Assembly: GCF_947331465.1 (NCBI RefSeq) | Contig: NZ_CAMZOK010000003.1 | Coordinates: forward strand, 744,001 to 808,000 | DNA length: 64,000 bases | Direction of reading: 5' to 3' | From: Shimia sp. Alg240-R146 | GTDB taxonomy: Bacteria; Pseudomonadota; Alphaproteobacteria; Rhodobacterales; Rhodobacteraceae | Shown: positions 16,512-53,113 of the stretch, one piece after another | How the letters are laid out: every line of letters begins with the position of its first letter | Position numbering within the stretch: position 1 is the first letter of the stretch | The notes under the pieces: model-generated | Databases searched by the model: none | What the model was told of the DNA's origin: nothing | The model's input: only the letters and a program-made list of their open reading frames with translations | Program-made: the position numbers and the translations under genes

Positions 16512-16633
16512 ATGAGCGGCACGACTCGGAAAACAATCACTTTTTTGACCGGTACTGGTCGGTGGGCAAGGTTGTCTGATAAGGTCGCCGCAAAGCCCAC
16601 GCGACAGGGCGACGGCAACGAGGCGAACCGCAG

Positions 16634-18936: not shown

Positions 18937-21900
18937 GTGAGCGACCACTCGGACTCGCCGGTAAGCGAGACGGATATTGCGATTGTGGGCATGGCGGCCC
19001 ACCTGCCCGGCGCGACCGGCATTGAGCAGTATTGGCAAAACCTGCGCGACGGAATCCGCTCGATTTCTCACCTTTCTGAAGAGGACTTGCTGGCCAATGG
19101 CGAAAGCCGTGCGCGGCTGAAGCACCGCAATTATGTGCCTGCTGCTGCCATGCTGGATGGCTTTGCCGAGTTTGACGCCGATTTCTTTGGTCTGTCGCCG
19201 AAAGAAGCCGCGATCATGGACCCGCAACATCGTCAATTCCTTGAGGTGAGCTGGGAGGCGTTGGAGAACGCCGGCCACATGCCCGAGAACTTTGGCGGGC
19301 CGATTGGGGTTTTTGCCGGCTGCGGCATGGGCAGTTATTTCTATTTCAACATCTGTTCCAACCGCGATCTGGTGGACAGCACCGGCATGTTCCTGCTGCG
19401 CCACACCGGCAACGACAAAGATTTCCTTGCTTCACGGCTGAGCCATTTCCTTGACCTGAAGGGGCCATCTCTGGGTCTGCAAACCGCGTGTTCCACATCG
19501 CTGGTTGCGGTGCATTACGCGGCGCAGTCGATCCTGAACGGTGAATGCGACATGGCCTTGGCGGGCGGCGTGACCATCGAGTTGCCGCACGGGCGGGGCT
19601 ATGTGTTTGAGGACGGCGAGATCCTGTCGCCTGACGGCGAATGCCACGCGTTTGACCATCGCGCACAAGGAACGGTGTTTGGCTCGGGCGCGGGTGTGGT
19701 TGTGTTGCGCCGACTTGAAGACGCAATTGCCGATGGAGACCACATCTGGGCCGTCATCAAAGGCTCGGCAGTGAACAACGACGGCAGCGACAAAGCCGGA
19801 TATCTGGCGCCGTCTGTGGGCGGACAAGCCTCGGCTGTGGCCGACGCAATGGCGATTGCCGATGTCCCCGCAGACACGGTGGATTACGTGGAATGCCACG
19901 GCACCGGCACCTATCTGGGCGACCCGATCGAGGTGACGGCCCTGACCGAAGCTTTCCGTGAAACCACCGACGCCACTGGGTTCTGCCGGATCGGATCGGT
20001 GAAAACCAACATCGGCCATCTGGACACAGCGGCGGGTGCGGCGAGCCTGATCAAGACCTCGCTGGCGCTGCATCACAAACAGATGCCACCGTCGCTGGGA
20101 TTTGAGAAACCCAATCCGGCCATCGATTTTGACACCAGTCCGTTTGCTGTGAACGCCGCGCTGACCGATTGGGCTCCGCGCAACGGCATCCGCCGGGCCG
20201 GAGTGAACAGCCTTGGGGTCGGCGGCACCAACGCGCATGTGATCGTGGATGAGGCACCCGTGCGGGTGCCTAGTGCCGACAGCGACTGGCCGTTTCAGTT
20301 GATCGCTGTTTCCGGCCGCTCCACCAAAGCGCTGGACGCCAACGCCGCCAATCTTGCCGCACATCTGAGGACCAATCCGGAGCAGCCTTTGGCCGATGTG
20401 GCACACACATTGCTAAATGGCCGGCGAAAGTTCGAAAAACGGCGGGTGTTGGTGGCAGAGAGCCATGAACAGGTGGCGGATTTGTTGGAATCCGGCAATC
20501 ATCTGCACGTTTTTACTCATTCTGCCGAGGCGGACGCGCCAGAAGTTGTCTTCATGTTCCCCGGTGGCGGCGCGCAATATGTCGGCATGGGACGTGATCT
20601 GTATGAGACCGAGCCCGCCTTTGCACAGTGGATGGACCATGGCTTTGACGTGCTCGCCGGCAAGGGTGGCGAGGCGCTGCGCGCGCTTTGGCTGACCGAA
20701 GGAGCGACGGTCCAAGACGCCGAAGAGGCGTTGAAAAAGCCGAGCCTGCAACTGCCGCTGATCATGATGGTGGAATATGCGCTGGCGCAGCTGTGGATCA
20801 GCTGGGGAGTGAAACCCGCCGCGCTGGTTGGCCATTCCATGGGCGAAAACACCGCCGCCTGTCTGGCGGGCGTGATGTCGTTTGAGGACTGCCTTGGGCT
20901 GGTGCAGCTGCGCGGCCAACTGTTTGATACCGTGCCTGCAGGCGGCATGTTGTCGGTGCCTTTGCCGCTGGGCGAAGTCAGCGCGCGTCTTGGCGAAAAT
21001 TTGGATATTGCGTCAGTGAATGCGCCGGCGTTGACCGTAGTATCCGGCCCAGATGCCGCGCTTGATGCGCTGGCGGCGGAACTGGCTTCTGAGGAAATCG
21101 ACACCCAGCGTGTGCCCATCAACATCGCCGCGCATTCGAGTATGCTGGAACCCATTCTGGAGCGGTTCGGCGATTACCTGCACGGGATCGATTTGCAGGC
21201 GCCCGTGCTGCCGATCATTTCCAACCGCACCGGCGCGGCCTTGCTTGCGAGCGAAGCAACCGATCCCGACTATTGGGTCGCGCACCTGCGCAACACAGTG
21301 CTGTTTGCCGACGATATCACCACGCTGAGCCAGACTCAGAACCGCGTCTACCTTGAAGTCGGCCCCGGTAAGGCGCTGGCCTCTCTGGTCAAAATGCATG
21401 GTCAGGTGAAAGCGGACAAGGTGGTGTCCTCGCTGCGCCATCCCGAAGACAAAATCGCGGACGACGCCTATTTCCTGACGGTTCTGGGACGGCTATGGGC
21501 CTGCGGCGTTGCTGTGGATTTTGACCAATATTGGGGCGGCGTGCCGCGCCAGCGTGTGGTCCTGCCCAGCTATGCCTTTCAGCGCAGCCGCTATTTCATC
21601 GAGCCCGGAAAAGATCAGATCGACGCGCCGGATGATCTGTTGATGCGCCTTGATGACACTGCCGACTGGGCCTTTGCACCGGTTTGGAGACCGCGACTGG
21701 CGGAATGTGAAATCGATGTGGCCACTGAGCTTGCGGACGCGCCCAAACACCATTGGTTGATCTTCACAGATGCTGGCGGAACCGGCGCCGCCGTGGCAAG
21801 TCAACTGCGCAATGCGGGCCATGATGTGGTGACCGTGCGCACGGGTGATGCCTTTGCCGCTGACGGGCCGGATGGCTATGTGCTTGCGCCCGAGAGGGGC

Positions 21901-24900
21901 CGCGAAGGCTACGATGCGTTGATTGCCGATCTAATGGCGCGCGGCCGCGTGCCGGATCGCGTGGTGCACATGTGGCTGCTGACGGAAACCGAAAACCATC
22001 GACCCGGTTCCAGCTTTTTCCACCGCAATCAGGAGCAGGGGTTCATGAGCCTATTGTTCCTTGCGCAAGCGATCACAGACGAGAACCTGCCACGGCCATT
22101 GCATGTCACTGCGATCAGTTCCGGCGCGCTGCAAGTGCGCGGCGAGGCCCTGCCCTATCCTGAGAAATCCACAGCTCTTGGCGCTGTGCAAGTGATCCCG
22201 CGTGAGCTGCCGGGTGTGACTGCGGCGTTGATTGACGTGCAACCGCCGGCACGCAAAGGCCACCTGACGCTGGCGATGCGCCTGATTGAGGACCTGATGG
22301 CCGAACCGCGCAGCCTGATTGCGGCTTGGCGCGGGGACAAACGATTTGAGCGGAGCTATCGCAAGACAGAACTTGGCGCAGAAGATATGCCGGTTTGGAG
22401 AGACGGTGGCACCTATCTGATCACTGGCGGATTTGGCGGAATTGGCCTGACCGTGGCGGAACGCGCCATTCGCGAGGCCCGCGCCAATGTGGTGCTGATC
22501 TCTCGCGATGGGCTGCCGGAGCGGGCAAAATGGGCCGCGTATTTGCGCGGCCATGCCCCGCAGGATCGCATTGCCCGCCGCATTCGCGCCGTCGAACGAC
22601 TCGAAAGCCTTGGTGGCGAGGTACTTTGTCTGGCGGCCGACGTGTGCAACATCGACGAAATGGGCGATGCTGTCGCCACCGCGCGCGCGGCCTTTGGCCC
22701 CATTAACGGTGTGATCCACGCCGCGGGCGTGATCGACGACGCCCCGCTTTTGGCCAAAACATCTGCGCAGATTGACGACGTGCTGGCGCCGAAATTGCAC
22801 GGCACACAGGTGTTGGAACAACTCTTCCCCGATGGCGATCTTGACTGGTTGGTGTTGTTCAGCTCGTCCTCTACCGCCACCGCGCCCGTGGGGCAGATCG
22901 ATTATGTTGCCGCCAACGCTTACCTGAACGCTTATGCGCAATCCCGCCGTGGCGACGCGACCCGCGTACGGGCGATCAACTGGGGCATTTGGGCCGAGAT
23001 CGGCATGGCGGCCGAAGCTGTCGCAGCGCGACAGGGCAACGTTGCCCCGAAGCCATTGGAACCCATCAGCGCGCCGTTGTTGGACACTGCGGGATTTGAC
23101 GCCGCAGGACATCGCATCTTTGAAGCGCGCTATGACACGTCGCGCTGGGTGTTGGATGAGCACCGCACCAAAGAGGGCGCGGCGATCCTGCCCGGTACCG
23201 GATACATCGAACTCGCGGCTGAGGCGCTGCGTGAACATGGCGAGGACGGCGGATTTGCCCTGCGTGACTTGCTGTTCCTGCGTCCCTTGCGTGTGGACGA
23301 AGGCGAGACCCTCATCATGCGTGTGCGTTTGGAACGCTCGGACGAGGGGTATCGGTTTGAGGTGCAAAGCGCTTGCCTTTTTGAAGGCCGCGAGGCGTGG
23401 CAAACCCACGCTGAGGCTCGATTGATCCCCAGCGCCGGGAAACCGCCTGTTCTAGATATTGCCAGCGCTAAGGCCCGCGTAGGTGACGGAACCAAAGCGG
23501 CAGGGTCCTCTGCGCTGTCGGCCCCGCAAGAAGCGCATTTGACGTTCGGCCCGCGTTGGAAGGTCCTGCGTGAGATGGCCCTCCGCGATGGCGAAGGCTT
23601 GGCATCGCTGGCGCTTGATCCGCAGTTTGCCAACGATGGCTGCCTCCTGCCTCCCGGCTTGCTGGATATAGCGACCGGATGGGCGATGGATCTGATCCTC
23701 GGCTATGGGCAAGCACATCTCTGGGTGCCGGTCAGCTATGACGCGCTGACGATGTATGCGCCGTTGCCGTCCGAAATCGTAAGCCACGTCCGCCTTGCCT
23801 CCGGCACCAGCGCCGAAGGTGTGGTCCGTTTTGATGTGACACTCGCCGCACCGGACGGCGCGGTCTGTGTCGAGGTTCAAGGTCTGTCGATCCGCCGGGT
23901 CGAGGCCGCTGGCTTGGTCGCGCAACCGCCGCTGAGCGCGGCCGAAATCTCTTTTGATACCCAGGGTCAGACGATGCATCCTCTCTCAGCTGCAGAGGAA
24001 CGTCTGATCCACAACCTGAGTCAGGGCATCCCGCCTGCGCAAGGCGCTGCGATGTTTGAGGCCGCCTTGCGCGCGCCCCTGACTCAGGTCGTTATTTCTT
24101 CGCTCGATCTGCCCTCGCTTATTGCGCAGGCAGAGGCGGGCGTGTCCGACACTGCGGGCGACGGTCAGGCGTTTGAACGTCCCGAGCTGGACACAGATTT
24201 TGTCGCGCCGTCAAATGACATCGAACGCACCTTGGCCGGTTTCTGGCAGGACTTGCTGGGCGTCGACAAAGTCGGCACGCGTGACAGTTTCTTTGACCTT
24301 GGCGGGCACAGCCTGATTGCAGTGCGTCTGTTTGCGATGGTCAAAAAGGCCTATCGCATTGAGTTCCCGATCTCGGTCTTGTTCGAAGCGCCTACGATCG
24401 AAACCTGTGCAGCGATGATTGCGGATCGCGTCGGTGGCGACACGCCGTCTGACGTCAGTCAGACCCGTGCGAGCGAAGGCTCATCTGAGCCTGAGACCGC
24501 GCCGCGCGCCGCCAGCCGTTTCACCCATCTAGTGCCCATGCACAGCGGAGAAGGCGGGCCGCGACGCCCGTTCTTCCTTGTGGCGGGCATGTTCGGCAAC
24601 GTGTTGAACTTGCGCCATCTCGCGCATCTAATTGGGGCTGACCGGCCGTTTTATGGCCTTCAGGCGCGTGGTCTTTTGGGCGACGCCGCACCGCATGATG
24701 ACCTGCAAGAAGCCGCGCGTGACTACATCGCCGAGATGCGGCAAGTGCAGCCGAGCGGGCCGTATCTGCTTGGAGGGTTTTCCGGCGGCGGCATCACCGC
24801 TTACGAAATCCGACGCCAGCTTGAGGCTGACGGAGAAGAGGTCGCGCTTGTCGCACTGCTTGACACACCGCTGCCGCGGCGCCGTGCGCTTTCGCGGGCT

Positions 24901-25374
24901 GACCGGATGAAAATCCAGATGCAGGAACTCAAGGCCAAAGGCCTCGCCTATCCGCTGATCTGGGCCAAAAACCGTATCGCTTGGGAGCTCTCCAAGCGTC
25001 GTGCGCCGGAAGAAACCGCACAGGACGCGCAAGGCCAACAGTTCCACGATGCCGAAATCGAGGCGGCGTTTTTGCGTGCCGTTGCCACCTATGATGTCAC
25101 GCCGTGGACCGGCAACCTCGTGCTGTTCCGTCCGCCTCTTTCGGGTAAGTGGGATATGGGTGAGGGTCGTTTGGTCGACGCGGACCGCGCTTATGTGTTC
25201 TCCGACAACGACTGGGGCCAATACGTGCCGCACGTCCAGGTCTTTGAGGTGCCGGGAGATCACGATAGTATGGTTCTGGAACCCAATGTGCGTGTGCTGG
25301 CAGCCCGCATGAAAAAGGTGATCGCCGAAGCCGAGGCCACCTTTAACAGCCAGCATAGGGAGGCCGCCGAATGA
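18937..25374 (+). CDS. Type I polyketide synthase, KS-AT-KR-DH-ACP-TE
   Basis: A single-module PKS of 2145 residues. The ketosynthase spans about 10-430 with Cys185, His321 and His361. The acyltransferase (about 535-840) has GHSMG with Ser634 and IAAH ending at His733, closer to malonyl- than methylmalonyl-type. The ketoreductase has its NADPH motif (GGFGGIG) near 1160, IDD as a B-type marker, Tyr1323 and Asn1327. A dehydratase-like region follows with His1409 in an HxxxxGxxxxPGT motif and Asp1577. The carrier Ser1792 sits in LGGHS, and a thioesterase has Ser1949 in GFSGG. No enoylreductase or methyltransferase is seen. The start is GTG at 18937. The stop overlaps the next GT2 by four bases. 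The KR-before-DH order is not the usual one for cis-AT modules. It probably works with the downstream NRPS; the thioesterase implies it is the releasing module. Confidence 0.93.
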   Translation: MSDHSDSPVSETDIAIVGMAAHLPGATGIEQYWQNLRDGIRSISHLSEEDLLANGESRARLKHRNYVPAAAMLDGFAEFDADFFGLSPKEAAIMDPQHRQFLEVSWEALENAGHMPENFGGPIGVFAGCGMGSYFYFNICSNRDLVDSTGMFLLRHTGNDKDFLASRLSHFLDLKGPSLGLQTACSTSLVAVHYAAQSILNGECDMALAGGVTIELPHGRGYVFEDGEILSPDGECHAFDHRAQGTVFGSGAGVVVLRRLEDAIADGDHIWAVIKGSAVNNDGSDKAGYLAPSVGGQASAVADAMAIADVPADTVDYVECHGTGTYLGDPIEVTALTEAFRETTDATGFCRIGSVKTNIGHLDTAAGAASLIKTSLALHHKQMPPSLGFEKPNPAIDFDTSPFAVNAALTDWAPRNGIRRAGVNSLGVGGTNAHVIVDEAPVRVPSADSDWPFQLIAVSGRSTKALDANAANLAAHLRTNPEQPLADVAHTLLNGRRKFEKRRVLVAESHEQVADLLESGNHLHVFTHSAEADAPEVVFMFPGGGAQYVGMGRDLYETEPAFAQWMDHGFDVLAGKGGEALRALWLTEGATVQDAEEALKKPSLQLPLIMMVEYALAQLWISWGVKPAALVGHSMGENTAACLAGVMSFEDCLGLVQLRGQLFDTVPAGGMLSVPLPLGEVSARLGENLDIASVNAPALTVVSGPDAALDALAAELASEEIDTQRVPINIAAHSSMLEPILERFGDYLHGIDLQAPVLPIISNRTGAALLASEATDPDYWVAHLRNTVLFADDITTLSQTQNRVYLEVGPGKALASLVKMHGQVKADKVVSSLRHPEDKIADDAYFLTVLGRLWACGVAVDFDQYWGGVPRQRVVLPSYAFQRSRYFIEPGKDQIDAPDDLLMRLDDTADWAFAPVWRPRLAECEIDVATELADAPKHHWLIFTDAGGTGAAVASQLRNAGHDVVTVRTGDAFAADGPDGYVLAPERGREGYDALIADLMARGRVPDRVVHMWLLTETENHRPGSSFFHRNQEQGFMSLLFLAQAITDENLPRPLHVTAISSGALQVRGEALPYPEKSTALGAVQVIPRELPGVTAALIDVQPPARKGHLTLAMRLIEDLMAEPRSLIAAWRGDKRFERSYRKTELGAEDMPVWRDGGTYLITGGFGGIGLTVAERAIREARANVVLISRDGLPERAKWAAYLRGHAPQDRIARRIRAVERLESLGGEVLCLAADVCNIDEMGDAVATARAAFGPINGVIHAAGVIDDAPLLAKTSAQIDDVLAPKLHGTQVLEQLFPDGDLDWLVLFSSSSTATAPVGQIDYVAANAYLNAYAQSRRGDATRVRAINWGIWAEIGMAAEAVAARQGNVAPKPLEPISAPLLDTAGFDAAGHRIFEARYDTSRWVLDEHRTKEGAAILPGTGYIELAAEALREHGEDGGFALRDLLFLRPLRVDEGETLIMRVRLERSDEGYRFEVQSACLFEGREAWQTHAEARLIPSAGKPPVLDIASAKARVGDGTKAAGSSALSAPQEAHLTFGPRWKVLREMALRDGEGLASLALDPQFANDGCLLPPGLLDIATGWAMDLILGYGQAHLWVPVSYDALTMYAPLPSEIVSHVRLASGTSAEGVVRFDVTLAAPDGAVCVEVQGLSIRRVEAAGLVAQPPLSAAEISFDTQGQTMHPLSAAEERLIHNLSQGIPPAQGAAMFEAALRAPLTQVVISSLDLPSLIAQAEAGVSDTAGDGQAFERPELDTDFVAPSNDIERTLAGFWQDLLGVDKVGTRDSFFDLGGHSLIAVRLFAMVKKAYRIEFPISVLFEAPTIETCAAMIADRVGGDTPSDVSQTRASEGSSEPETAPRAASRFTHLVPMHSGEGGPRRPFFLVAGMFGNVLNLRHLAHLIGADRPFYGLQARGLLGDAAPHDDLQEAARDYIAEMRQVQPSGPYLLGGFSGGGITAYEIRRQLEADGEEVALVALLDTPLPRRRALSRADRMKIQMQELKAKGLAYPLIWAKNRIAWELSKRRAPEETAQDAQGQQFHDAEIEAAFLRAVATYDVTPWTGNLVLFRPPLSGKWDMGEGRLVDADRAYVFSDNDWGQYVPHVQVFEVPGDHDSMVLEPNVRVLAARMKKVIAEAEATFNSQHREAAE

Positions 25375-26375
25375 GTGACGCCCCCCGCCTTTTGACCGTG
25401 ATCCTGAATTGGCGCACGCCGGAGATGACTCTGCGTGCTGCCCAGGCAGCTGCGCGCGAAATGCATGGCATCGACGGGCGCATCGTGATTGTCGACAACG
25501 ACAGTGGGGACGGCAGTTTTGAGATGATCCGTGATGGTCTCGCGCACGCCACTTGGGCCGAGAACCGCGTTGAGGTTGTGCAATCGGGCCATAATGGCGG
25601 CTTTGGCGCGGGCAACAATTTTGGCATCCGGCACGGCGCCGCCAAGGGCTTTGACTACGTCTATATTCTCAACTCTGATGCGTTTCCCGATGCGGGCAGC
25701 ATTCAACTGCTGCTGGCACATCTGACGCTCAATCCTGACGTTGGCATTGCTGGCAGCTATATCCATGGCGAAGACGGCGCACCGCATGTCACCGCGTTCC
25801 GCTTTCCCACGGTCTGGAGCGAGCTTGAGGGTGCCGCGCGACTTGGCGTGATTTCGCGGATGCTAAAAAACCATATCGTGCCGTTGCCGATCCCACCTGA
25901 GACCATGCGCGTGGATTGGCTTGCGGGTGCATCGATGATGCTGCGCCGCGAGGTTCTTGAAGACATTGGCCTCTTTGATGAGAGCTTTTTCCTCTATTTT
26001 GAAGAAACCGATTTGTGCCTGCGGGCCGCACGGGCCGGATGGCCCACCGAATATGTGCGCGCCAGCGAAGTGACGCATATCGGATCCGTGTCCACCTGTA
26101 TGAAAACATGGCAACGCATGCCGTCTTACTGGTTTGACAGCCGCCTGTATTATTTCCGCAAAAACCATGACAGCGCCTTTGCACCCACGCTGGCGCATGT
26201 CACCGGCACGCTGATCTGGAAACTACGCCGCATCATTGGGCGCAAACCGCGGCGAGATCCCAATTGGTTCCTTTGGGACCTGATCCGCCATTATCTTCGC
26301 AACATTTCCAACCGGGCCCCGCGCGATCGGTCCGCAACACCCACGCTAAACCCGCGCAAGGAGGCCAACACATGA
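25371..26375 (+). CDS. Glycosyltransferase family 2 (rhamnosyltransferase-like)
   Basis: A 334-residue GT2 enzyme with LLTVILNWRTPEMTLRA at the start, VDNDSGDGS, a YILNSDAFPD segment carrying the metal site, and DWLAGASMMLRREVLEDIGL followed by FDESFFLYFEETDLCLR. These motifs are typical of rhamnosyl-type WbbL relatives. It is sandwiched between PKS and NRPS genes with ATGA overlaps on both sides, so it is made in step with them. That arrangement suggests that it glycosylates the polyketide-peptide product or links it to a sugar, although a purely glycan role is possible. No membrane span is clear. Confidence 0.88.
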   Translation: MSDAPRLLTVILNWRTPEMTLRAAQAAAREMHGIDGRIVIVDNDSGDGSFEMIRDGLAHATWAENRVEVVQSGHNGGFGAGNNFGIRHGAAKGFDYVYILNSDAFPDAGSIQLLLAHLTLNPDVGIAGSYIHGEDGAPHVTAFRFPTVWSELEGAARLGVISRMLKNHIVPLPIPPETMRVDWLAGASMMLRREVLEDIGLFDESFFLYFEETDLCLRAARAGWPTEYVRASEVTHIGSVSTCMKTWQRMPSYWFDSRLYYFRKNHDSAFAPTLAHVTGTLIWKLRRIIGRKPRRDPNWFLWDLIRHYLRNISNRAPRDRSATPTLNPRKEANT

Positions 26376-29300
26376 GCCTTGATACCCTTTCCACTGCTCG
26401 CATGAGCGCCGTGATGATCGGCAATGAAAGCCTGCTGATCCAATGCGCCACGATGTGGCGGGACGCAGGCCATGCCATTGCAGCCATCGTCACACGCGCC
26501 ACCGATATTCGGACGTGGGCGGAGCGCGAAGGGCTGCGGGTTGTGTCCTCTGATGCGGATATTGCAGAGGCGCTTCGAGGCGAGGCATTTGATTGGTTGC
26601 TGTCGATTGCCAACCTCGACATGTTGCCGCAAGCGGTACTGGGTTTGCCAACCAGAGGTGCGGTGAACTTTCACGACGGGCCGCTGCCGCGCTATGCGGG
26701 TTTGAACGCGCCAGTTTGGGCGCGACTTAACCAAGAGGCCCGTCACGGCATCACTTGGCACAAGATCGAAGCCAAAGCCGACACTGGCGACATCATTGCG
26801 CAGCGCATGTTTGACATTGCACAGGCCGACACCGCGCTGACGCTGAACACCAAAGCCTATGCCGCCGCAATCGAGAGCTTTCCGGAAGTTGTCACCGCTC
26901 TGTCCGATGGTTTGCCTGATGCGCGGCCTCAAGACATGGGGCAACGCAGCTATTTCGGTCTTGGCCATCTGCCGGAGGCGGCAGGTCGGATCGATTTCCG
27001 CCGCGATGCCCAAGAGGTCGTCGCGCTGGTGCGCGCGCTGGACCATGGCGATTATTTCAACCCGTTGTGCGCGCCGAAGTTCGTCGCGTCAGGCCGTGTG
27101 TTGCTGGTCGGAGCCGCCGAGATCGCCGAAAGCGCAGGCCATGGTGAACCCGGCGCGGTGTTGGCCGTCGGCCCTGATGCGGTGACCATCGCCTGTGGAC
27201 GCGGGGCTGTGACCTTGTCCTGCCTGACCGACAGCGCAGGACACACACAAATCCCTGGCCATGTCATCCGCGACGGAGAACGTCTGCCTCTGTTGGATCG
27301 CGCCGCCGCCGAGACGCTGAGCGCCACCATGGCCAAAGTTGCCAAGTCCGACGCCTTTTGGCGCGCGCGTCTGGCGGCTTTTCTACCGGCAAACCTGCCT
27401 TTGATCGCCGCAGCTGGCGATCTGCCCGATATGCGCAGGGTCGCGTTGACCCTGCCCGAGTTGCCCTCCAAGCAAGCCCTGACCGCAGTGACCCTTTGGG
27501 CGTTGCGGTCAGGGGTACCGGAGGCTTGCGACATTGCCCTGTGTCCCGCCGACCTGCCTCGCGCGGCTGGCATTCTGAGCGATTGGGTGCCTTTGCGAGT
27601 GAATACCGAGGTCCTGCAGGGCACCGTGGCCAGTGCGGTAGATGCTGTTACGTCAACGCTCGAGACACTGACCCACAACGGCGCTTGGGCGCAGGATTTG
27701 ATTGCCCGTGACCCGACCCTCGCCGCACCGGGAATGCCTGATTTGGCGGTCACACTGGATGGGTCTGGCGCGGTCGAAGGCGCTGCTCTGACAGTTGCGC
27801 TTGGCGATGCTCCGGCATTGCATTTTGACGCCACACGGCTCAGCGACGCCCACGCCAAACGCCTGGTCGCGCGTTTGGAGCTTTTGGCAGAAGCCATGGC
27901 GGATGACACCGCGGTTCAAGACTTGCCGTTCTTGCCGGAAGCCGAGCGCCAAGACCTGCTGACCAATTGGAACGACACAGCCGTCGATTTTGATGCGGAC
28001 GCCACCATTGTCGCCCAATTTGAGGCGCAAGTTGCTGCCACGCCGAATGCAGCGGCATTGGTTTATGAGCATGATACGCTCAGCTATGCGGATCTTAACG
28101 CCCGGGCGAACCGTGCTGCGCATGTGCTGCGCGATATGGGGGTGACACACGGGGCTTTGGTCGGATTGTGTACCCGTCGCGGTCCCGATCTGGTGGTCGG
28201 GGCGCTGGCGATCCTAAAGGCAGGCGGTGCCTATGTGCCGATGGACCCAACCTATCCCGCCGATCGTCTGGCGCATTTTATTGCCGATTCAGGCTGCGGT
28301 GTGATCGTCACACAAGTGGCGCTTGCCAAAGACTTGCCTGACCATCAGGCACAGGTCTTGCAACTCGACACTGACGCGCGGCTGTCAAAAGCCAGTGCGC
28401 AGAATCCCGATGTGATTTCTGGCGGCGATGATCTCGCCTATCTGATCTACACCTCCGGTTCTACCGGCACGCCCAAAGGGGTGATGGTCGAGCACGGCAA
28501 TGTCGCCAATTTCTTTGCTGGGATGGACGCGCGGATATCCTACAACATAGGCGACACGTGGCTTGCGGTCACATCTCTCAGCTTTGATATCTCGGTGCTG
28601 GAGCTGTTCTGGACCCTCTCGCGCGGCTTTAAGCTTGTGCTATCCGGTGACGAGACCACCACCCAGATCTCGGGTGGGCGCCTGCCGGCGGCGTCGGGTG
28701 GCATGGAGATGTCGATTTATTACTGGGGCAACGATGACGGTCAGGGGTCCAAGAAATACGAACTGCTGCTGGAAGGCGCGAAATTTGCTGACGCGCATGG
28801 GTTTTGCGCCGTTTGGACGCCAGAACGCCACTTCCACGCCTTTGGCGGCCCCTACCCCAACCCGTCGGTCACCGGCGCGGCGGTGGCGGCTGTGACCAAA
28901 CAGATCGGCGTGCGCGCCGGATCTTGCGTCGCGCCCCTGCACCACACAGCCCGCATCGCCGAAGAATGGGCGGTGATCGACAACCTGACCAACGGCCGCG
29001 CGGGTATGGCGATTGCCTCGGGCTGGCAGCCGGACGACTTTGTGCTGCGCCCTGAAAACACGCCGCCCGCCAACAAGCCTGCGATGTTTGAACAGATGAC
29101 GGAGCTGCGCAAACTTTGGCGCGGCGAAGAGGTCGCATTCGCCAAGCAGGATGGCTCGATGCATGCGGTGCTGACGCAACCGCGGCCCGTGTCCAAAGAG
29201 CTGCCGCTGTGGGTGACCACGGCGGGTAATCCCGAGACCTGGAAAGAGGCCGGGCGGCATGGCTGCAACGTGCTGACGCACCTATTGGGGCAAAGCGTGG

Positions 29301-31030
29301 ACGAGGTTGGCGGCAAAATTGCGCTGTATCACGATGCGCTGCGCGAAGCGGGGCACAATCCCGATGATTTCAGCGTGACCTTGATGCTGCACAGCTTCTT
29401 GGCCGAGGATCGCGAAAAGGCGCGCGAAATCGCCCGCGAACCAATGAAAGACTACCTGCGCAGCGCGGCGGGATTGATCAAACAATACGCTTGGGCCTTC
29501 CCTGCGTTCAAAAAACCCGAAGGCGTCGACAACGCGTTTCAACTCGACCTTGGCGGTCTGACTGAGGAAGAGCTTGAAGGCATTCTGGACTTTGCCTTCC
29601 TGCGGTATTTCGAAGACTCGGGTCTGTTTGGCACCATTGAAGACGCATTGGATCGGGTTGAGCAGGTCAAACGCATCGGTGTGACCGAGATCGCCTGTTT
29701 GATCGACTACGGCATCGATACCGCCACCGTTATGGAGGGGCTCAAGCCCTTGGCCGAAGTGCTGCGGCTGGCAAATGAGGGCGGCGAATTGGACCCGTCG
29801 GATGTGTCGATTGCGGCGCAAATGATCCGCCATGACGTCAGCCACTTGCAGTGCACCCCGTCGATGGCGCGGATGATTGCGATGAACGACGAGGCGCGGT
29901 TTGCGCTACGTGGTGTGGATCATTTGATGATCGGTGGTGAGGCGCTTTCGGGCGGTCTGGTTGCCGATCTGAACGCGGCCACCGATGCGGGCATACAAAA
30001 TATGTATGGCCCAACCGAAACCACCATCTGGTCAACAACCGGCATGGCCGAGGCGGGCGAAGGTGTCGCCAATATCGGCGCGCCGATTGCCAACACGGGA
30101 ATCTACGTGCTGGACGCGGCGGGTGATCCCGCGCCCGTTGGGGTGCCCGGCGAGTTGTTGATCGGCGGCGCAGGCGTGACGCGTGGCTATTGGCGGCGCG
30201 AAGCGTTAACGGCGGAGCGTTTTGTCGAGAACCCCTTTGGCGAGGGGCGGCTTTATAAAACCGGCGATCTGGTGCGCTGGCGCGATGACGGCAAGCTCGA
30301 TTTCCTTGGACGCGCCGACCATCAGGTCAAGCTGCGCGGCTATCGCATTGAGCTGGGCGAAATCGAAACCCGTCTGGAAGAAATCACCGGCGTCGCACAA
30401 TCCGTGGTTATGCCGCGTGAAGACACGCCGGGCGATGTGCGCCTCGTAGCGTATCTGCGTGGCGATGCGATACCGGATGAGGCGGACATACGCGCGGCGT
30501 TGCGGGCCAATCTGCCAGCCTTCATGCGGCCCCAACACTATGTCACCGTCACCGATTTCCCGCTGACGCCCAACAAAAAGGTCGACCGCAAGGCGCTTCC
30601 GTCACCGGAAGAAACCCGCACTGTCGCGGTCACGAAACCCGTCGCTGCGGCACCCGTGACTGCACCGGTCGCGGTGACAGGCGATGTCGCGGCCACGGTT
30701 GCGGCGGTTTGGTCGCGGGTGTTGGGGGTGGCCGAAGTCAACGCAACCGACAACTTCTTTGACATTGGTGGGCACAGCCTTTTGGCCGTTCAGGCGCATC
30801 GGGACATCCGCACCGAAACCGGCGCGGCGAAGCTGTCGATCACCGACATTTTCCGCTTTCCAACCATGGCCGGACTGGTCACACGTATCGAAGAGCTAAC
30901 GGGCGGCTCCCGTCCCGCAGATGCGCCGCAGGTGGCGAGCCGCGAAGATGTTGCGGACCGTGCCGATGGGCGCGCGGAAATGATGAGTAAGCGCCGCGCC
31001 ATGCGCGCGCGTCGCAGGGCGAGGACGTAA
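26372..31030 (+). CDS. NRPS with formyltransferase domain and luciferase-like monooxygenase inserted in the adenylation domain (MupA/Atu3671-type)
   Basis: A 1552-residue synthetase. Residues 1-190 form a formyltransferase with the catalytic Asn99, His101 and Asp137 spaced as in ArnA-type enzymes, and 195-315 resemble its C-terminal domain. Residues 320-525 look like a condensation-domain remnant without HHxxxDG. The adenylation domain starts near 545 (TSGSTGTPKG at 694), is broken after its A4 region near 760 by a luciferase-like flavin monooxygenase (about 775-1135; SIYYWGND, VWTPERHFH), and resumes at about 1150 (YGPTETT, YKTGDL, NKKVDRKAL). The carrier Ser1469 sits in IGGHS. A basic tail follows. 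The specificity residues read D-I-L-Q-M-G-M-I-W plus the A10 Lys, very near the glycine code. This fits an N-formylating loading module with oxidation of the bound amino acid. The ATG overlaps the GT2 stop; its own stop overlaps the PPTase start. Confidence 0.88.
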   Translation: MSLDTLSTARMSAVMIGNESLLIQCATMWRDAGHAIAAIVTRATDIRTWAEREGLRVVSSDADIAEALRGEAFDWLLSIANLDMLPQAVLGLPTRGAVNFHDGPLPRYAGLNAPVWARLNQEARHGITWHKIEAKADTGDIIAQRMFDIAQADTALTLNTKAYAAAIESFPEVVTALSDGLPDARPQDMGQRSYFGLGHLPEAAGRIDFRRDAQEVVALVRALDHGDYFNPLCAPKFVASGRVLLVGAAEIAESAGHGEPGAVLAVGPDAVTIACGRGAVTLSCLTDSAGHTQIPGHVIRDGERLPLLDRAAAETLSATMAKVAKSDAFWRARLAAFLPANLPLIAAAGDLPDMRRVALTLPELPSKQALTAVTLWALRSGVPEACDIALCPADLPRAAGILSDWVPLRVNTEVLQGTVASAVDAVTSTLETLTHNGAWAQDLIARDPTLAAPGMPDLAVTLDGSGAVEGAALTVALGDAPALHFDATRLSDAHAKRLVARLELLAEAMADDTAVQDLPFLPEAERQDLLTNWNDTAVDFDADATIVAQFEAQVAATPNAAALVYEHDTLSYADLNARANRAAHVLRDMGVTHGALVGLCTRRGPDLVVGALAILKAGGAYVPMDPTYPADRLAHFIADSGCGVIVTQVALAKDLPDHQAQVLQLDTDARLSKASAQNPDVISGGDDLAYLIYTSGSTGTPKGVMVEHGNVANFFAGMDARISYNIGDTWLAVTSLSFDISVLELFWTLSRGFKLVLSGDETTTQISGGRLPAASGGMEMSIYYWGNDDGQGSKKYELLLEGAKFADAHGFCAVWTPERHFHAFGGPYPNPSVTGAAVAAVTKQIGVRAGSCVAPLHHTARIAEEWAVIDNLTNGRAGMAIASGWQPDDFVLRPENTPPANKPAMFEQMTELRKLWRGEEVAFAKQDGSMHAVLTQPRPVSKELPLWVTTAGNPETWKEAGRHGCNVLTHLLGQSVDEVGGKIALYHDALREAGHNPDDFSVTLMLHSFLAEDREKAREIAREPMKDYLRSAAGLIKQYAWAFPAFKKPEGVDNAFQLDLGGLTEEELEGILDFAFLRYFEDSGLFGTIEDALDRVEQVKRIGVTEIACLIDYGIDTATVMEGLKPLAEVLRLANEGGELDPSDVSIAAQMIRHDVSHLQCTPSMARMIAMNDEARFALRGVDHLMIGGEALSGGLVADLNAATDAGIQNMYGPTETTIWSTTGMAEAGEGVANIGAPIANTGIYVLDAAGDPAPVGVPGELLIGGAGVTRGYWRREALTAERFVENPFGEGRLYKTGDLVRWRDDGKLDFLGRADHQVKLRGYRIELGEIETRLEEITGVAQSVVMPREDTPGDVRLVAYLRGDAIPDEADIRAALRANLPAFMRPQHYVTVTDFPLTPNKKVDRKALPSPEETRTVAVTKPVAAAPVTAPVAVTGDVAATVAAVWSRVLGVAEVNATDNFFDIGGHSLLAVQAHRDIRTETGAAKLSITDIFRFPTMAGLVTRIEELTGGSRPADAPQVASREDVADRADGRAEMMSKRRAMRARRRART

Positions 31031-31761
31031 TGACAAATCCCTCTGAACACCTGACCGATCTGCTGGATCTGGCCCGACGGTTTGCACCGCGCGGCGTTGG
31101 TGTTGGCGTGGCCGACCCGACGCAAAGCCCGGCCACGGTCTTGCCCGAAGAGGCCGTGGCCATCGCCAGCGCGATCCCCAAGCGAAAACGCGAGTTCGCT
31201 GCGGGTCGTCGTGCAGCTCGGCAAGCTTTGCAATCGCTGGATCTGCCAGCCGTGGCCATACCTAAAGGCACCGACCGCGCGCCGGTGTTTCCCACCGGCA
31301 TCGCCGGATCGATCACCCATAATCGAGGCGCGGCATTGGCTATTGTCGCGCCCCAAACGCGCTTTCGCGCGCTTGGCGTTGACGTGGAACCGCAAGCGCC
31401 GTTGAAGCCGGAATTGATCAAGGCGATTTGCACGTCCGAAGAGGCCGCGATGCTCGCACAACTTCCAGAGGCCGAGCGGCTTTTGCTGGCCCGCCGCCTG
31501 TTTTCCGCGAAAGAAGCGGTGTTTAAGGCGCAGTTTCCGATCACACGGCAGGTGTTTGGCTTTCAGGCCGCCTCGATCACGTTCAACGCTCTGCGCAGCG
31601 GGTTTGTCGCGACCTTTCATCGTGACATCGCCTCTATCCGCGCCGGAAGCAGCGTATCAGGCCAATGCGGCGTCGCGGGCGGTCATATCCTGACAATGGT
31701 CACGCTTGGGGCGGTCGTCGGCACGGAAAACGCCAATTTCCCCGTTTGCGCCACGGGATAA
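31030..31761 (+). CDS. 4'-phosphopantetheinyl transferase (Sfp/EntD type)
   Basis: A 243-residue transferase that converts apo carrier proteins to the holo form using CoA. The family motifs are visible: AGSITHNRG near residue 93, the metal-binding GVDVE (Asp118, Glu120), and FSAKEAVFK near 159-166. The start ATG shares one base with the NRPS stop, so the enzyme is co-translated with the synthetase. Its obvious targets are the carrier domains at Ser1792 of the PKS and Ser1469 of the NRPS. The presence of a dedicated activator supports the view that the block is a functional biosynthetic unit. Confidence 0.93.
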   Translation: MTNPSEHLTDLLDLARRFAPRGVGVGVADPTQSPATVLPEEAVAIASAIPKRKREFAAGRRAARQALQSLDLPAVAIPKGTDRAPVFPTGIAGSITHNRGAALAIVAPQTRFRALGVDVEPQAPLKPELIKAICTSEEAAMLAQLPEAERLLLARRLFSAKEAVFKAQFPITRQVFGFQAASITFNALRSGFVATFHRDIASIRAGSSVSGQCGVAGGHILTMVTLGAVVGTENANFPVCATG

Positions 31762-31835: not shown

Positions 31836-33110
31836 ATGGACAGGTTTCAGTCTCTTGGAGAGGTACTGAGCATGCTCCGCAGAAGGGCTCTTCTGTGGGT
31901 GTCTGTCATTGCGCTTGGCGTACTGATCTCTTTGATGTATGCGCTGTCCCTGCCCCGCGAATATGAAACTTCCGCCACCATCCAGATTGAACAGCCCACC
32001 ATTCAGACCGGCGAGTCCTCCCGCGGGTCGTTGAATGCGGAGATGCTGCAAAAACTGCAGATCGTTGAGCAACGTGTGATGGCGCGCGACAACCTGCTCG
32101 CGATCATCGAGAAATTCGGACTTTATCGCAACGCTGGTCTGAGCAATTTGCAAAAGGTGGACCTGCTGCGTCGTGCCGCCCGTGTTCAGCACATCACAAA
32201 CCCGCAACTGCGGTGGCGTCAGGACATCAGCCCTTCGGCATTGTTGGTGACCGTGCGTATGACTGACGCGGCGCTAGCGGCCAATGTCGCCAATGAACTG
32301 GTGAACAACGTGCTGGATCAGGAAGAGGCGAGCCGGTCTGCGCGCGTGCGCGAAACACTGGACTTTTTTGACAGCGAAGAGCGCCGCATCAGTGCCGCGA
32401 TCTTTACGCTTGAGGCGCAGATTGCCGAGTTTAAACGTGAAAACGCGGTGATCTTGCCCGGCGGCGTGGAAAGCCTGCGCACTCGTTTGACCGACCTGCA
32501 AGAGATCGAGCTTGAAGTGCAACGCCAGATCCTGTCGTTGCAGGACGGTGGCGAAACCGAGGCAAGCACCATTCGCGGTCAACGGATTGCGCGCCTGCGC
32601 GAAGAACGTGAACTGTATCAACTTGAGATCAGCGGGCTTGAGGCGCAACTTGCCGCGACCCCGGCGATTGAGCAGGCTTTCAGCAAGCTGGAGCGCCAGC
32701 TCGGCAAGCTGGAAGATCAGTACGAAGCGGTTACCGTTGGCAAGGCACAGGCCGAAATGGACCAGATGCTTGAGGCCAACCGAAAGTCTGACAGTTTTGC
32801 GGTGCTTGAAGTGGCGCTGCCACCGGATTGGCCGATTGCACCGTCTCGCAAAAAGATCCTCGCGATGGGCGGCATGCTCAGCGCGGCTGTGGCGCTAACG
32901 TTGGTGTTTCTGGCGGAAATGCGCAGCCCAGTGATTTGGACCCGTGGCCAGCTTGAGCGGCAATTGCGCCTGCGCGCTGTGGCTGCGATCCCGGTGATCG
33001 AAACAAAAGCCCGCCGCCGCAATCGCCGCATCCTGAGCATAGCAAAAATCGGAGCCGTGTTGGCCACAGCAGCGGCACTGGCGGGAATCGCTTTGAAATT
33101 CGGTCGGTAA
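31836..33110 (+). CDS. Polysaccharide co-polymerase / chain-length determinant (Wzz-like)
   Basis: A 424-residue membrane protein of the Wzz (PCP) family. There is a membrane span at about residues 20-40 after a short cytoplasmic start, and a large periplasmic part rich in coiled coil (about 165-310, many Glu/Arg/Leu heptads). A proline-containing region (VALPPDWPIAPSRKK) before the second span near 335-357 is the family signature. An additional hydrophobic stretch lies near 400-420. It sets polymer length with the Wzy polymerase. It has no fused kinase; the BY-kinase-like gene lies 16 kb downstream. GAGGATCAGGC precedes the ATG. Confidence 0.82.
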   Translation: MDRFQSLGEVLSMLRRRALLWVSVIALGVLISLMYALSLPREYETSATIQIEQPTIQTGESSRGSLNAEMLQKLQIVEQRVMARDNLLAIIEKFGLYRNAGLSNLQKVDLLRRAARVQHITNPQLRWRQDISPSALLVTVRMTDAALAANVANELVNNVLDQEEASRSARVRETLDFFDSEERRISAAIFTLEAQIAEFKRENAVILPGGVESLRTRLTDLQEIELEVQRQILSLQDGGETEASTIRGQRIARLREERELYQLEISGLEAQLAATPAIEQAFSKLERQLGKLEDQYEAVTVGKAQAEMDQMLEANRKSDSFAVLEVALPPDWPIAPSRKKILAMGGMLSAAVALTLVFLAEMRSPVIWTRGQLERQLRLRAVAAIPVIETKARRRNRRILSIAKIGAVLATAAALAGIALKFGR

Positions 33111-33597
33111 GTCGCCGCATTCCTGCCTCATTTCACCAAACTCACCGAATCAATAGGCAGCCAACGCGCTTTTCCGCACTATTTGACAAACGCGAAAATG
33201 CCATTTTGAGAAACAATCCCACAAGCGCTGATAGAACCGTTTCCAAACCGCATTCGGATTTGGGGACTATTAACCATCTTTTGAGCAAATGAGATTTTGT
33301 TTGTTGGTTAATATTGATTAAAATCAATACTTTAGGGAATTTTGACGCAAAGTTACAGTGGATTTCGGGAAAATTGTGTCTAATATATGTTCTTGGGTGG
33401 GCGCTTCTGAGAATGGAGCACCGAGGGAAAACGGAAGACTGCTGAGCGATGAGCCCTGCTGCCAGGGCGCTATTCAATACGGTCCAATAAAAGTTGCACG
33501 TGTCAATTTTGGCGCGACGGCGAAGCTTTGACCGAAACTTGGCCTTTCAATCATATCCCAAAGTGCCCCGAACGACGTGTTAGTGGGGACGACGCTG
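33111..33597. other. AT-rich intergenic region upstream of the priming transferase
   Basis: Nearly 490 bases with no supported gene and clearly lower GC than the flanks. It contains a CtrA-like half site TTAACCAT at 33270-33277, paired TTAA boxes at 33308-33321 with a 6-base spacer, and a strong palindrome at 33312-33329. This is the best candidate in the exopolysaccharide region for a regulated promoter. The exact start of transcription could not be assigned. Confidence 0.55.
33312..33329. promoter_or_regulatory. Perfect palindrome TATTGATT-AA-AATCAATA
   Basis: Two perfect 8-base arms with a 2-base centre lie about 270 bases before the priming glycosyltransferase start. The symmetry and AT-rich context suggest the operator of a dimeric regulator controlling exopolysaccharide initiation. 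Which regulator binds is unknown. Confidence 0.5.
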
Positions 33598-34263
33598 ATG
33601 GCGATCTATTCGCGGAAAGACTTTGCGCAGGGCTTTGAGGTTTCAACGCCGCAGCGCGGCCTGTATCGCGGCTTTGTTAAGCGCGTTTTGGACATATTGT
33701 TTGTCCTGACAATCGCGCTGCCGGTGGGGTTTGTGGTGCTAATGCTGGCGCTGCTGATTGCCCGCGACGGCGCTTCGCCGATCTATCGACAAAGACGCGT
33801 CGGCAAAGATGGCCGCATCTTTTATATGCTCAAGCTACGCTCGATGGTACCCAACGCGGATCAAAAGCTCGAAGAGTATCTGCGTCAAAACCCTGAAGCC
33901 CGCCGCGAGTGGGACGAAAAGCAAAAGCTGACCAACGATCCGCGCATCACGCCGATTGGCCGCCTGATCCGCAAGTCGTCTTTGGATGAGTTGCCACAGT
34001 TCCTGAACGTGCTGAGCGGTGACATGTCGGTGGTTGGCCCGCGTCCGATGATGCCGGAGCAAGTGCGTCTTTATCCTGGCGCCGCATATTTCACTATGCG
34101 TCCCGGAATTACCGGATTTTGGCAGATTTCGGAGCGCAACGAATGCAGCTTTGCGGAACGGGCCATTCATGACGGAAACTACGACCGCGCGCTGTCGCTG
34201 CGCACGGATGTGGCCGTGGTGTTGCGCACTGTGTCGGTTGTGGCACTGGGCACCGGTGTCTGA
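33598..34263 (+). CDS. Undecaprenyl-phosphate sugar-1-phosphate transferase (priming sugar transferase)
   Basis: A 221-residue monotopic enzyme of the bacterial sugar transferase (PssY/WcaJ C-terminal domain) family. It starts glycan synthesis by moving a sugar-1-phosphate onto undecaprenyl phosphate at the inner membrane. A hydrophobic anchor lies at about residues 30-57, followed by YRQRRVGKDG, FYMLKLRSM, SSLDELPQFLNVLSGDMS, and VGPRP with the catalytic region. The C-terminal PGITGFWQ is conserved. The ATG at 33598 is preferred, as the GTG 21 bases earlier only adds a short leader. It follows a long AT-rich region, so it may be the first gene of its own transcript. Confidence 0.9.
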   Translation: MAIYSRKDFAQGFEVSTPQRGLYRGFVKRVLDILFVLTIALPVGFVVLMLALLIARDGASPIYRQRRVGKDGRIFYMLKLRSMVPNADQKLEEYLRQNPEARREWDEKQKLTNDPRITPIGRLIRKSSLDELPQFLNVLSGDMSVVGPRPMMPEQVRLYPGAAYFTMRPGITGFWQISERNECSFAERAIHDGNYDRALSLRTDVAVVLRTVSVVALGTGV

Positions 34264-34338: not shown

Positions 34339-35853
34339 GTGCCCCGCCTCATGCCAAACGCACTTGCCACAGCGATGCTTGTGATCTGGCCGGTCGTGAT
34401 CTGGCGGCTGTTTTTGGTGCTGCCGCCAGGCCGCGCGCTGATCTGGTCGTTGCTGGGCGCCTATTTGTTGTTGCCACCTCCGCCGGCGGCGATCGATTTT
34501 CCACTGATGCCTGCCTTGGACAAGACGTCCCTGCCCAATCTCGCCATCCTGCTCGTGGCCTATCTGGTTCTGCGCGGGGAGAACCGTCCGCGCTTGCTGC
34601 CAGACAGTAGTGTTGCGCGTTGGTTGCTTCTGATCTTTGTGCTCAGCCCGATCGCCACGGTGTTTACCAACCCCGAGCCGTTGATCTTTACCGAGAACTT
34701 CATTCGTGGGCTTTATCTTCAGGATGCCATCGCGCAGCCGATCAACCGGTTCATTCTGGTGATTGGCTTTCTGATGGCGCGGCAATATCTGACCACGCGC
34801 GAAGATCAACGTGATCTGCTGATCGCGCTGGTGATCGCCGGACTGGCATATTCCTTACCGATCCTGCTTGAGGTTCGCCTGAGCCCGCAGCTTAACAATT
34901 GGGTTTACGGGTATTTCCAACACCTGTTCTCGCAGACCCTTCGTCAGGGCGGATATCGTCCGATGGTGTTCCTCTATCATGGGATTTGGCTGGCCTATTT
35001 TGTGCTGACCTGCCTGTTGGCGGCCTTGGCTGTCTGGCGAGCAGATCGCAGCGCGACACGCGCCAAATACATGATCGCGGCGTTTTATCTGCTTGGCGTG
35101 CTGGTGCTGTGCAAAACACTCGCAACGCTGGTTTATGCCGGTGCAGCTGGTGCGTTGATCCTTTTGCTCAGCACGCGGATGCAGGTGCGGGTGGCCGCCC
35201 TTCTGGCGTTGATCACGATCAGCTATCCGGTGCTCAAGTCGATCGACCTTGTGCCCGCCGAAGTTATCCTATCGCAGGCCGAAGCGATCAGCGAAGAACG
35301 TGCGCACTCTTTGGCGTTCCGGTTTGAGAACGAGGATATTCTGGTAGACCGTGCCTTTCTCAAACCCTGGTTTGGCTGGGGCATCTGGGGCCGAAACCAC
35401 GTCCATGACCCTGATACCGGCTTTATCACCTCTGTGTCGGACGGATATTGGGTGATTGTAATCGGAGTCTGGGGATGGGTCGGCTACATCGCCCAATTCG
35501 GGCTTATGTCACTGCCGATTTTCCTTGTCTGGCGCGAATTGAAGTTGGTGTCCCGGTTTGAGAGAGAACAGTTTCAGCGCACCGCGTCCTTTGCTCTGAT
35601 GGACCGCACATATGGTGTCGGGGACACAGACCGAGGGTTGTCACCCTACCTCGGGCCGTTGGCGTTGATGCTGGGGTTCAACCTGATTGACCTGTTGCCC
35701 AATGCGACGCTGACACCGACGACATGGCTGATTGCGGGGACGTTGTTCGGTCATGCCGAACGGTTGGCACGGCGCAGAAAAGATGGCGTTCAGGAAAACG
35801 TCGAACCGCCCCCGCCTTCAGAAACTGTGTTGAAGCGGCGAACGGTTCTGTAG
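34339..35853 (+). CDS. Polysaccharide polymerase-like membrane protein (Wzy-like)
   Basis: A 504-residue protein with about ten or eleven hydrophobic spans and a long outer loop near residues 195-225 (a YGYFQHLFSQTLRQGGYRP stretch), a layout typical of O-antigen / exopolysaccharide polymerases. A GWGIWGRN segment near 350 is a further recognisable feature of the family. It would join flipped repeat units on the periplasmic side. The start is GTG at 34339 or the ATG at 34351; neither has a perfect ribosome site, but AACAGGA lies just before. Sequence conservation in this family is low, so the call rests on topology and its location between priming transferase and acetyltransferase. Confidence 0.72.
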   Translation: MPRLMPNALATAMLVIWPVVIWRLFLVLPPGRALIWSLLGAYLLLPPPPAAIDFPLMPALDKTSLPNLAILLVAYLVLRGENRPRLLPDSSVARWLLLIFVLSPIATVFTNPEPLIFTENFIRGLYLQDAIAQPINRFILVIGFLMARQYLTTREDQRDLLIALVIAGLAYSLPILLEVRLSPQLNNWVYGYFQHLFSQTLRQGGYRPMVFLYHGIWLAYFVLTCLLAALAVWRADRSATRAKYMIAAFYLLGVLVLCKTLATLVYAGAAGALILLLSTRMQVRVAALLALITISYPVLKSIDLVPAEVILSQAEAISEERAHSLAFRFENEDILVDRAFLKPWFGWGIWGRNHVHDPDTGFITSVSDGYWVIVIGVWGWVGYIAQFGLMSLPIFLVWRELKLVSRFEREQFQRTASFALMDRTYGVGDTDRGLSPYLGPLALMLGFNLIDLLPNATLTPTTWLIAGTLFGHAERLARRRKDGVQENVEPPPPSETVLKRRTVL

Positions 35854-36367: not shown

Positions 36368-36500
36368 GCTGCCCTGCCTTCAAATTGCCCCTAAATCGTT
36401 GTCGCAAAACCTCTCTTGTCGTGCAACGTCCGTGTTGTAACACGCGCGCCTCTTGCGGGTTTTGTTCGAGAGGTATTTTCTGCGCAACATGAAGGACGCC

Positions 36501-51962: not shown

Positions 51963-51974
51963 TCCTGTCTCCGT

Positions 51975-52004
51975 CCCGTGGCGCGTCCCTCCTTGCGTCA
52001 CGGG
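51975..52004 (+). other. Intercistronic hairpin between ptcA and arcC
   Basis: CCCGTG and CACGGG pair over an 18-base loop. There is no T run, so this is more likely an mRNA stability or processing element than a terminator. Confidence 0.35.
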
Positions 52005-52048
52005 AACTCCCCATTTCATTCCCTCATCGCTCCTGAAAGGAACGCAAA

Positions 52049-52978: not shown

Positions 52979-52984
52979 TACTTT

Positions 52985-53005
52985 ACGGGCCGTTAAGCGG
53001 CCCGT
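52985..53005 (+). terminator. Hairpin after carbamate kinase gene
   Basis: A perfect 8-base stem (ACGGGCCG / CGGCCCGT) with loop TTAAG starts 6 bases past the stop. The following CCTTTGGG is a poor T run, so partial termination or message processing within the operon is likely. Confidence 0.55.
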
Positions 53006-53113
53006 CCTTTGGGTGCTTGTTCGCGCCCGCCCGCCTCCTCAAGAAACAGGAACCGGCTTTGATTTTTCTGGTCGCCATTCCTGAATTTTGGCAATTATGA
53101 ATTGGAAATGACC

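Follow-up and report, generated by a model that had tools for sequence, protein, structure and literature searches.

The initiation module of LgrA, from the linear gramicidin line, has the order formyltransferase–adenylation–carrier, N-formylates at the start of synthesis and contains no monooxygenase. Its formylation is cited as a known case in PMC8949500. Flavin monooxygenases inserted in the glycine-activating adenylation (A) domain of a nonribosomal peptide synthetase (NRPS) are described in PMC10204066: in MtaG and MelG, from the myxothiazol and melithiazol lines, the insert separates motifs A4 and A5, and the carbinolamide is cleaved so that an amide is released at the end of the line, whereas SolF, of the solanimycin line, is an internal module with the insert between A8 and A9, and the alpha-hydroxyglycine is retained in solanimycin B. 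Two further flavin enzymes bear comparison, the oxygenase domain of PuwE (puwainaphycin; PDB 6ket), which lies between polyketide synthase (PKS) and NRPS modules, and FbnE, from the NRPS siderophore pathway of fabrubactin in Agrobacterium fabrum, a proposed alpha-hydroxycarboxylate maker (PMC12971057). Here we describe an NRPS-like initiation module encoded in a 64,000-nucleotide stretch of Shimia sp. Alg240-R146 (contig NZ_CAMZOK010000003.1, positions 744,001 to 808,000; hereafter, the window), which belongs to a four-gene cassette inside a polysaccharide locus.

The A domain of this NRPS is split at the same place as those of MtaG and MelG, as judged from the published description, and FbnE is likened to its insert on the same kind of ground; the PuwE domain belongs to the same monooxygenase family, although in the window protein the insert sits inside the A domain. 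The window NRPS differs from MtaG and MelG in having an N-terminal formyltransferase and no working condensation (C) domain, so that the module should act first. The widespread NRPS-PKS cassette apparently makes an acyl unit that is destined for a polysaccharide. Its setting, a polysaccharide gene cluster in many marine bacteria, is of greater interest than the module alone and suggests that the sugar coat of these bacteria is decorated with a purpose-built acid.

Architecture of the initiation module

The open reading frame (ORF) at 26372-31030 (+) encodes a protein of 1552 amino acids and begins with an ATG preceded by an AAGGAGG ribosome-binding site, for which this start was preferred; a longer version from a TTG at 26264 was discarded. 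The protein has the following parts:

26372..31030 (+), NRPS-like initiation module with the order formyltransferase, C-terminal lobe of a C domain, A part 1, luciferase-like monooxygenase, A part 2, carrier (domain profiles, motifs, profile comparison)
26372..27271 (+), formyltransferase domain, residues 1-300, with Asn99, His101 and Asp137 (Pfam, residues, model, Foldseek)
27272..27991 (+), C-terminal lobe of a condensation domain, residues 301-540, without HHxxxDG (profile comparison)
27992..28651 (+), adenylation domain part 1, residues 541-760, with motifs A3 and A4 (Pfam, motifs)
28709..29761 (+), TIGR04020 luciferase-like monooxygenase inside the A domain, residues 780-1130 (NCBIfam, PDB search, model)
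29801..30601 (+), adenylation domain part 2, residues 1144-1410, with motifs A5-A10 (NCBIfam/Pfam, motifs)
30692..30901 (+), carrier domain, residues 1441-1510, with Ser1469 (Pfam, residues)

Six Pfam matches, all passing their curated cut-offs, cover most of these parts: Formyl_trans_N (residues 59-174, 9.6e-14), Formyl_trans_C (203-285, 4.8e-8), AMP-binding, which is matched in two pieces (best 550-762, 4.6e-85), Bac_luciferase (789-1105, 3.6e-42), AMP-binding_C (1330-1403, 7.7e-7) and PP-binding (1442-1506, 4.3e-10). TIGR04020 matches residues 780-1130 with 471.3 bits, against a curated cut-off of 244.45 (475.8 in the genome search). With the usual motif names, A3 falls at residue 693, A4 at 738, A5 at 1210-1216, A7 at 1295, A8 at 1313 and A10 at 1401, placing the monooxygenase between A4 and A5; the carrier motif GGHSL starts at 1466. 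An earlier note, made on this DNA from its letters alone, had described this domain order, an A domain broken after its A4 region and resuming before its YGPTE motif, the residues Asn99, His101, Asp137 and Ser1469, and membership in the MupA/Atu3671 group: the order is borne out by Pfam and NCBIfam matches, motifs and profile comparison, the break by the motif positions, the four residues are exact in the translation, and the TIGR04020 score confirms the group. The existence of an NRPS combining a formyltransferase with a monooxygenase-split A domain is confirmed.

The remnant of a C domain, also proposed in that note, is detectable by profile comparison only: Pfam Condensation matched none of 27 family members in the region of residues 296-548. 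The profile of these residues aligns with the C-terminal half of C domains from the fetched loci (hhalign probability 98.1, E 1.1e-13; 221 columns, template columns 201-479 of 509) and, in the PDB, matches McyB (9.5e-11), Txo2 and tyrocidine synthase 2 at the ends of their C domains. A condensation domain proper has both lobes and HHxxxDG; here the N-terminal lobe with this motif is missing, the formyltransferase occupies its place and only the C-terminal lobe is left. Foldseek on the formyltransferase-linker model returned only formyltransferase-fold proteins among the top 50, which says nothing about the remnant.

The model of residues 1-548 has a pLDDT of 90.6, and its formyltransferase part matches the structures of Fmt and ArnA (Foldseek). 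The domain is N-terminal and carries the Asn-His-Asp triad, as in a formylating initiation module of the LgrA type. Conservation was followed in alignments built from 98 loci, which, with one tblastn piece of >80% of the query required, gave 93 NRPS rows and 88 PKS rows. Of the 94 aligned rows, 92 keep the whole triad; one of the other two is a truncated contig.

The insert matches the PuwE oxygenase domain (6ket) with an E-value of 2.8e-99 by sequence and 42% identity in the model comparison, which supports the flavin monooxygenase fold; the model of the A-monooxygenase-A part is of moderate confidence (pLDDT 75.2) and was used for this fold only. The monooxygenase is the most constrained segment of the protein, with 171 of its 351 positions conserved to 95% or more vs 43 of 300 in the formyltransferase. 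The ratio of nonsynonymous to synonymous substitution rates (dN/dS), computed by segment against the relatives L125, L162 and G210, is below 0.22 in all 17 computable comparisons (of 18) and lowest in the monooxygenase segment (0.027-0.030 in the three pairs). Together with the domain scores, these ratios speak against a chance pattern.

The specificity residues of the A domain read DILQMGMIW, identical at seven of nine positions to the glycine code, DILQLGLIW, with two L to M changes. Across the 94 aligned rows the code is DILQ[M/F/L/Y]GMIW: seven positions are invariant in 94/94, an eighth is the same in 93/94 (the residue of L144 is unreadable) and at the ninth M, F, L and Y occur. The A domain would thus activate glycine, judging from the code. 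Distantly related A-monooxygenase proteins from Nostoc, Deinococcus, Burkholderia glumae and Aliiroseovarius share this code or have a close form of it, and one from Streptomyces reads DMVQLGMVW, so that the pairing of a glycine A domain with this insert seems to be ancient; a full condensation domain stands before the unit in the proteins from Nostoc, Streptomyces and B. glumae.

The protein ends with a basic tail, SKRRAMRARRRART (window 30902-31027 +), of a kind that recurs in the 25 rows inspected and that may be a docking element for the PKS.

The cassette and its polysaccharide locus

The NRPS gene is the third of four overlapping genes. The other three are:

18937..25374 (+), type I PKS with ketosynthase (KS), acyltransferase (AT), ketoreductase (KR), dehydratase (DH), acyl carrier protein (ACP) and thioesterase (TE) in the order KS-AT-KR-DH-ACP-TE, the expected extender of the glycyl unit (Pfam, conserved residues)
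25371..26375 (+), family 2 glycosyltransferase between PKS and NRPS (domain profile)
31030..31761 (+), 4'-phosphopantetheinyl transferase (PPTase; domain profile)

Neighbouring genes share 4 bases at the PKS-glycosyltransferase and glycosyltransferase-NRPS junctions and 1 base where the NRPS stop meets the PPTase start. The PKS is a single module in which KR precedes DH, which is not the usual PKS order, and the DH motif has one extra residue (H-x4-G-x4-P). The 17 residues checked in KS, AT, KR, DH, ACP and TE do not vary among the rows that have a residue at the aligned position (89 rows at the three KS positions and 88 elsewhere, L144 being gapped outside KS), with the sole exception of one DH proline in G590.

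The cassette is surrounded by genes of polysaccharide assembly:

17440..18822 (+), Wzx-type flippase (domain profile)
31836..33110 (+), Wzz chain-length determinant (domain profile)
33577..34263 (+), WbaP-like polyprenyl-phosphate sugar transferase (domain profile)
34339..35853 (+), membrane protein, candidate polymerase (Wzy), with seven hydrophobic segments in a simple hydropathy scan and no Pfam or NCBIfam match
36453..38495 (+), AT3-SGNH acyltransferase (domain profile)
43823..46005 (+), two glycosyltransferases, EpsE-like GT4 and GT2 (domain profile)
49708..50478 (+), Wze/EpsG-type tyrosine autokinase (domain profile)

Flippase, chain-length protein, initiating sugar transferase and tyrosine kinase, four marks of a Wzx/Wzy-type locus, are present; the outer-membrane exporter Wza was not seen among the ORFs scanned, a part of those in the window. 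The cluster also holds a Hint-domain protein (48382-49611 +). The earlier note had the anatomy of the protein right and missed this setting of PKS, glycosyltransferase, PPTase and polysaccharide locus, which changes the likely purpose of the NRPS.

Distribution and gene order

TIGR04020 (E 1e-60) is found in 107 of 295 genomes of the family to which the window belongs, which its named members indicate to be Rhodobacteraceae in a broad sense (106 of 294 genera), and in 19 of 398 genomes drawn from the phylum, 10 of these 19 being family members again. The 295 family genomes comprise 101 with both NRPS and PKS, 6 with the NRPS only, 3 with the PKS only and 185 with neither; some of the odd cases are partial matches on short contigs, the PKS of G144 falls below the threshold and, the genomes being related, a P value for this co-occurrence would be meaningless. 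Two genomes without a PKS match at threshold have short frames with TIGR04020 (G244:C65, 392 amino acids, and G263:C63, 363 amino acids), perhaps stand-alone monooxygenases.

In 78 named loci, selected by similarity to the window protein, PKS, glycosyltransferase and NRPS are contiguous in 73 (three differ and two are cut off) and the PPTase comes next after the NRPS in 68; the closest named relative is Shimia sp. SK013, with 93% identity. Gene order was further read in 20 hand-picked genomes carrying matches (13 from the family, 7 from outside), with the window's own genes as queries, so that unrelated sugar genes would be missed. In 12 of the 13 family genomes, all but G144, the cassette has the order PKS-glycosyltransferase-NRPS and the 40 kb fetched around it contain one or more of Wzx, Wzz, Wze and WbaP; sugar genes also lie near the NRPS-PKS pair in G440 and G549, outside the family. 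Polysaccharide genes surround the NRPS-PKS pair on plasmids of Ruegeria, Aminobacter, Shinella, Paracoccus and Deinococcus, that is, in three orders and two phyla; on the Aminobacter and Shinella (Hyphomicrobiales) plasmids the PKS is on the opposite strand.

The plasmid of Deinococcus actinosclerus carries a split version, in which a free formyltransferase (38% identity over 190 amino acids, with the Asn-His-Asp triad), an A-monooxygenase-carrier protein and a PKS are encoded by adjoining separate genes among polysaccharide genes, and the PKS ends in a condensation domain in place of the thioesterase. By its gene content, this arrangement supports a partnership in which the formyltransferase would work with the A-monooxygenase-carrier module, as well as transfer of the product to a putative acceptor. 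The first 365 free residues of the Deinococcus NRPS match C domains weakly (hhalign probability 50) and do not match the window remnant (hhalign 0.4).

In a quick tree, in which long branches are flagged among the outer rows, 100 of 111 rows form a clade with SH-aLRT 100. The betaproteobacteria Hydrogenophaga and Curvibacter carry the cassette (L102, L107, L108, L111-L114, L133, L147, L157, L159), and their rows nest among alphaproteobacterial ones, which suggests horizontal transfer of the cassette.

The hybrid HSR-NRPS-T1PKS antiSMASH cluster on the 225-kb plasmid of Paracoccus marcusii CP157, reported with product not known in PMC8273931, whose main text does not mention polysaccharide, is probably this cassette: a cassette match (H15) lies on a 225058-base P. 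marcusii plasmid with Cancer pagurus as the source. Roseobacter PKS and NRPSs of unknown product were noted before, e.g. Inhi_1972 and Inhi_1974 of Phaeobacter inhibens (PMC4062626), which, judging from their numbering, would also be this cassette. The open-licence literature searched yielded no description of the cassette in a polysaccharide locus. Such orphan roseobacter genes may serve polysaccharide.

Proposed chemistry and alternatives

Every chemical step, and the acceptor, are deduced from features that are directly observed, namely the domains, the active-site residues, the gene order and the co-occurrence. On balance, we regard it as somewhat probable that the NRPS serves to initiate a two-protein NRPS-PKS line devoted to the polysaccharide, making an acyl derived from N-formyl-(alpha-hydroxy)glycyl. 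The split A domain would activate glycine and load it on the carrier, the N-terminal formyltransferase would formylate the amine, and the embedded FMN-dependent monooxygenase would hydroxylate the alpha-carbon to give an N-formyl-alpha-hydroxyglycyl thioester; the adjoining PKS would extend it once with a malonyl-type unit, and KR and DH would then act to give a C4 acyl of the 4-formamido(-4-hydroxy)but-2-enoyl type. The thioesterase, or in Deinococcus the terminal condensation domain, would hand the acyl to a sugar of the exopolysaccharide, and the co-encoded glycosyltransferase would perhaps add a sugar to it. A more specific version is tentative, and we lean against it: in about one-third of the sampled family genera, the polysaccharide would carry, or be chained through, an assembly-line acyl made of N-formyl-alpha-hydroxyglycine and one malonyl, with the glycosyltransferase trapping the unstable carbinol in an N,O-glycoside. 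If so, the NRPS-PKS pair would be a synthase of polysaccharide building blocks and not a maker of free natural products. If genes of this kind do serve the polysaccharide, assembly-line enzymology would be joined with surface polysaccharides, and the cassette would be well suited to the study of formylation and oxidation on a single carrier.

Formylation and oxidation of one carrier-bound amino acid fit the anatomy. The earlier note called this combination notable and the chemistry of the MupA/Atu3671-like group little described: both domains are indeed present, the combination being the norm in the family, as the conserved triad indicates, and the second statement is only partly right, given the precedents SolF, MtaG and MelG (PMC10204066) and the solved relative 6ket. 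Because of the glycine-module precedents and the PuwE domain as the nearest solved relative, carbon hydroxylation of glycine is, by analogy, the likeliest action of the insert.

Several observations weigh against the polysaccharide line: the Deinococcus case is a single locus; the relatives were picked by similarity, so that shared code and synteny are partly expected; in the PDB search the formyltransferase matches the sugar-amine formyltransferases WbkC and ArnA and the Met-tRNA formyltransferase Fmt better (1e-18 to 1e-14) than it does the formylation domain of LgrA, a weak match (7e-7), so that its closest kin are not domains of the LgrA type; in L056 (G126:C6, 6475-7344, minus strand) the triad reads N-F-S with the rest kept, the second copy in that genome (L178) having an intact triad; 16 of the 67 named loci longer than 24 kb, many of them betaproteobacterial, yielded no protein related to the Wzx or Wzz of the window within the sequence at hand, as is true of most of the Hydrogenophaga and Curvibacter loci; and the formyltransferase-bearing G322, G590, G144 and L169 have PKS or NRPS-PKS genes next to them, their fetched regions yielding no sugar gene of the window type.

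The last two points would be explained if the line made a glycosylated small molecule that stays free, the polysaccharide genes being mere neighbours. This is possible but unlikely, considering that the polysaccharide setting recurs in 12 of the 13 fetched family genomes and on the five plasmids, and that no exporter gene lies within the four-gene cassette.

N-formyl-N-hydroxy groups are classical chelators, and joint formylation and oxidation in one module would also fit a monooxygenase that oxidizes nitrogen to give an N-formyl-N-hydroxyglycyl hydroxamate, in which case the polysaccharide or small molecule would bind metal. This is improbable: the precedents for an oxygenase in a glycine A domain (PMC10204066) and the PuwE domain are carbon hydroxylations, and the four genes of the cassette include none for metal uptake (the ZnuABC-type group at 8.8-12 kb lies apart from them).

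Equally doubtful is a collapse of the alpha-hydroxylated unit, as in myxothiazol, in which the formamide would leave and the PKS would extend a glyoxylyl thioester; MtaG and MelG, with the same A4/A5 insertion, provide the precedent for cleavage of the carbinolamide, but alpha-hydroxyglycine is retained in solanimycin B (PMC10204066), and it would be odd to formylate the amine only to lose it, with the triad kept almost throughout. Formylation of an amino sugar of the polysaccharide in place of glycine, to which the sugar-amine formyltransferases WbkC and ArnA among the nearest solved relatives might point, is very improbable, as the domain and the A-carrier module form one protein even in G322, G590 and L169, near which no sugar genes are seen, and the window protein has no sugar-modifying domain.

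Other genes of the window

Two genes next to the polysaccharide genes recur in the named loci: a 981-amino acid protein with a weak RTX repeat (13566-16511 +) in 49 of 78 and a 311-amino acid protein of no known family (16436-17368 -) in 57 of 78. Downstream, a row of genes at 50901-58264 (+) encodes a carbamoyltransferase, an amino acid kinase, two amino acid permeases, an agmatine deiminase family protein and a LysR regulator, and looks, from its gene content, like an agmatine deiminase catabolic operon. At 58333-60410 (-), a caspase-domain protein with a peptidoglycan-binding domain adjoins an OmpA-family protein.

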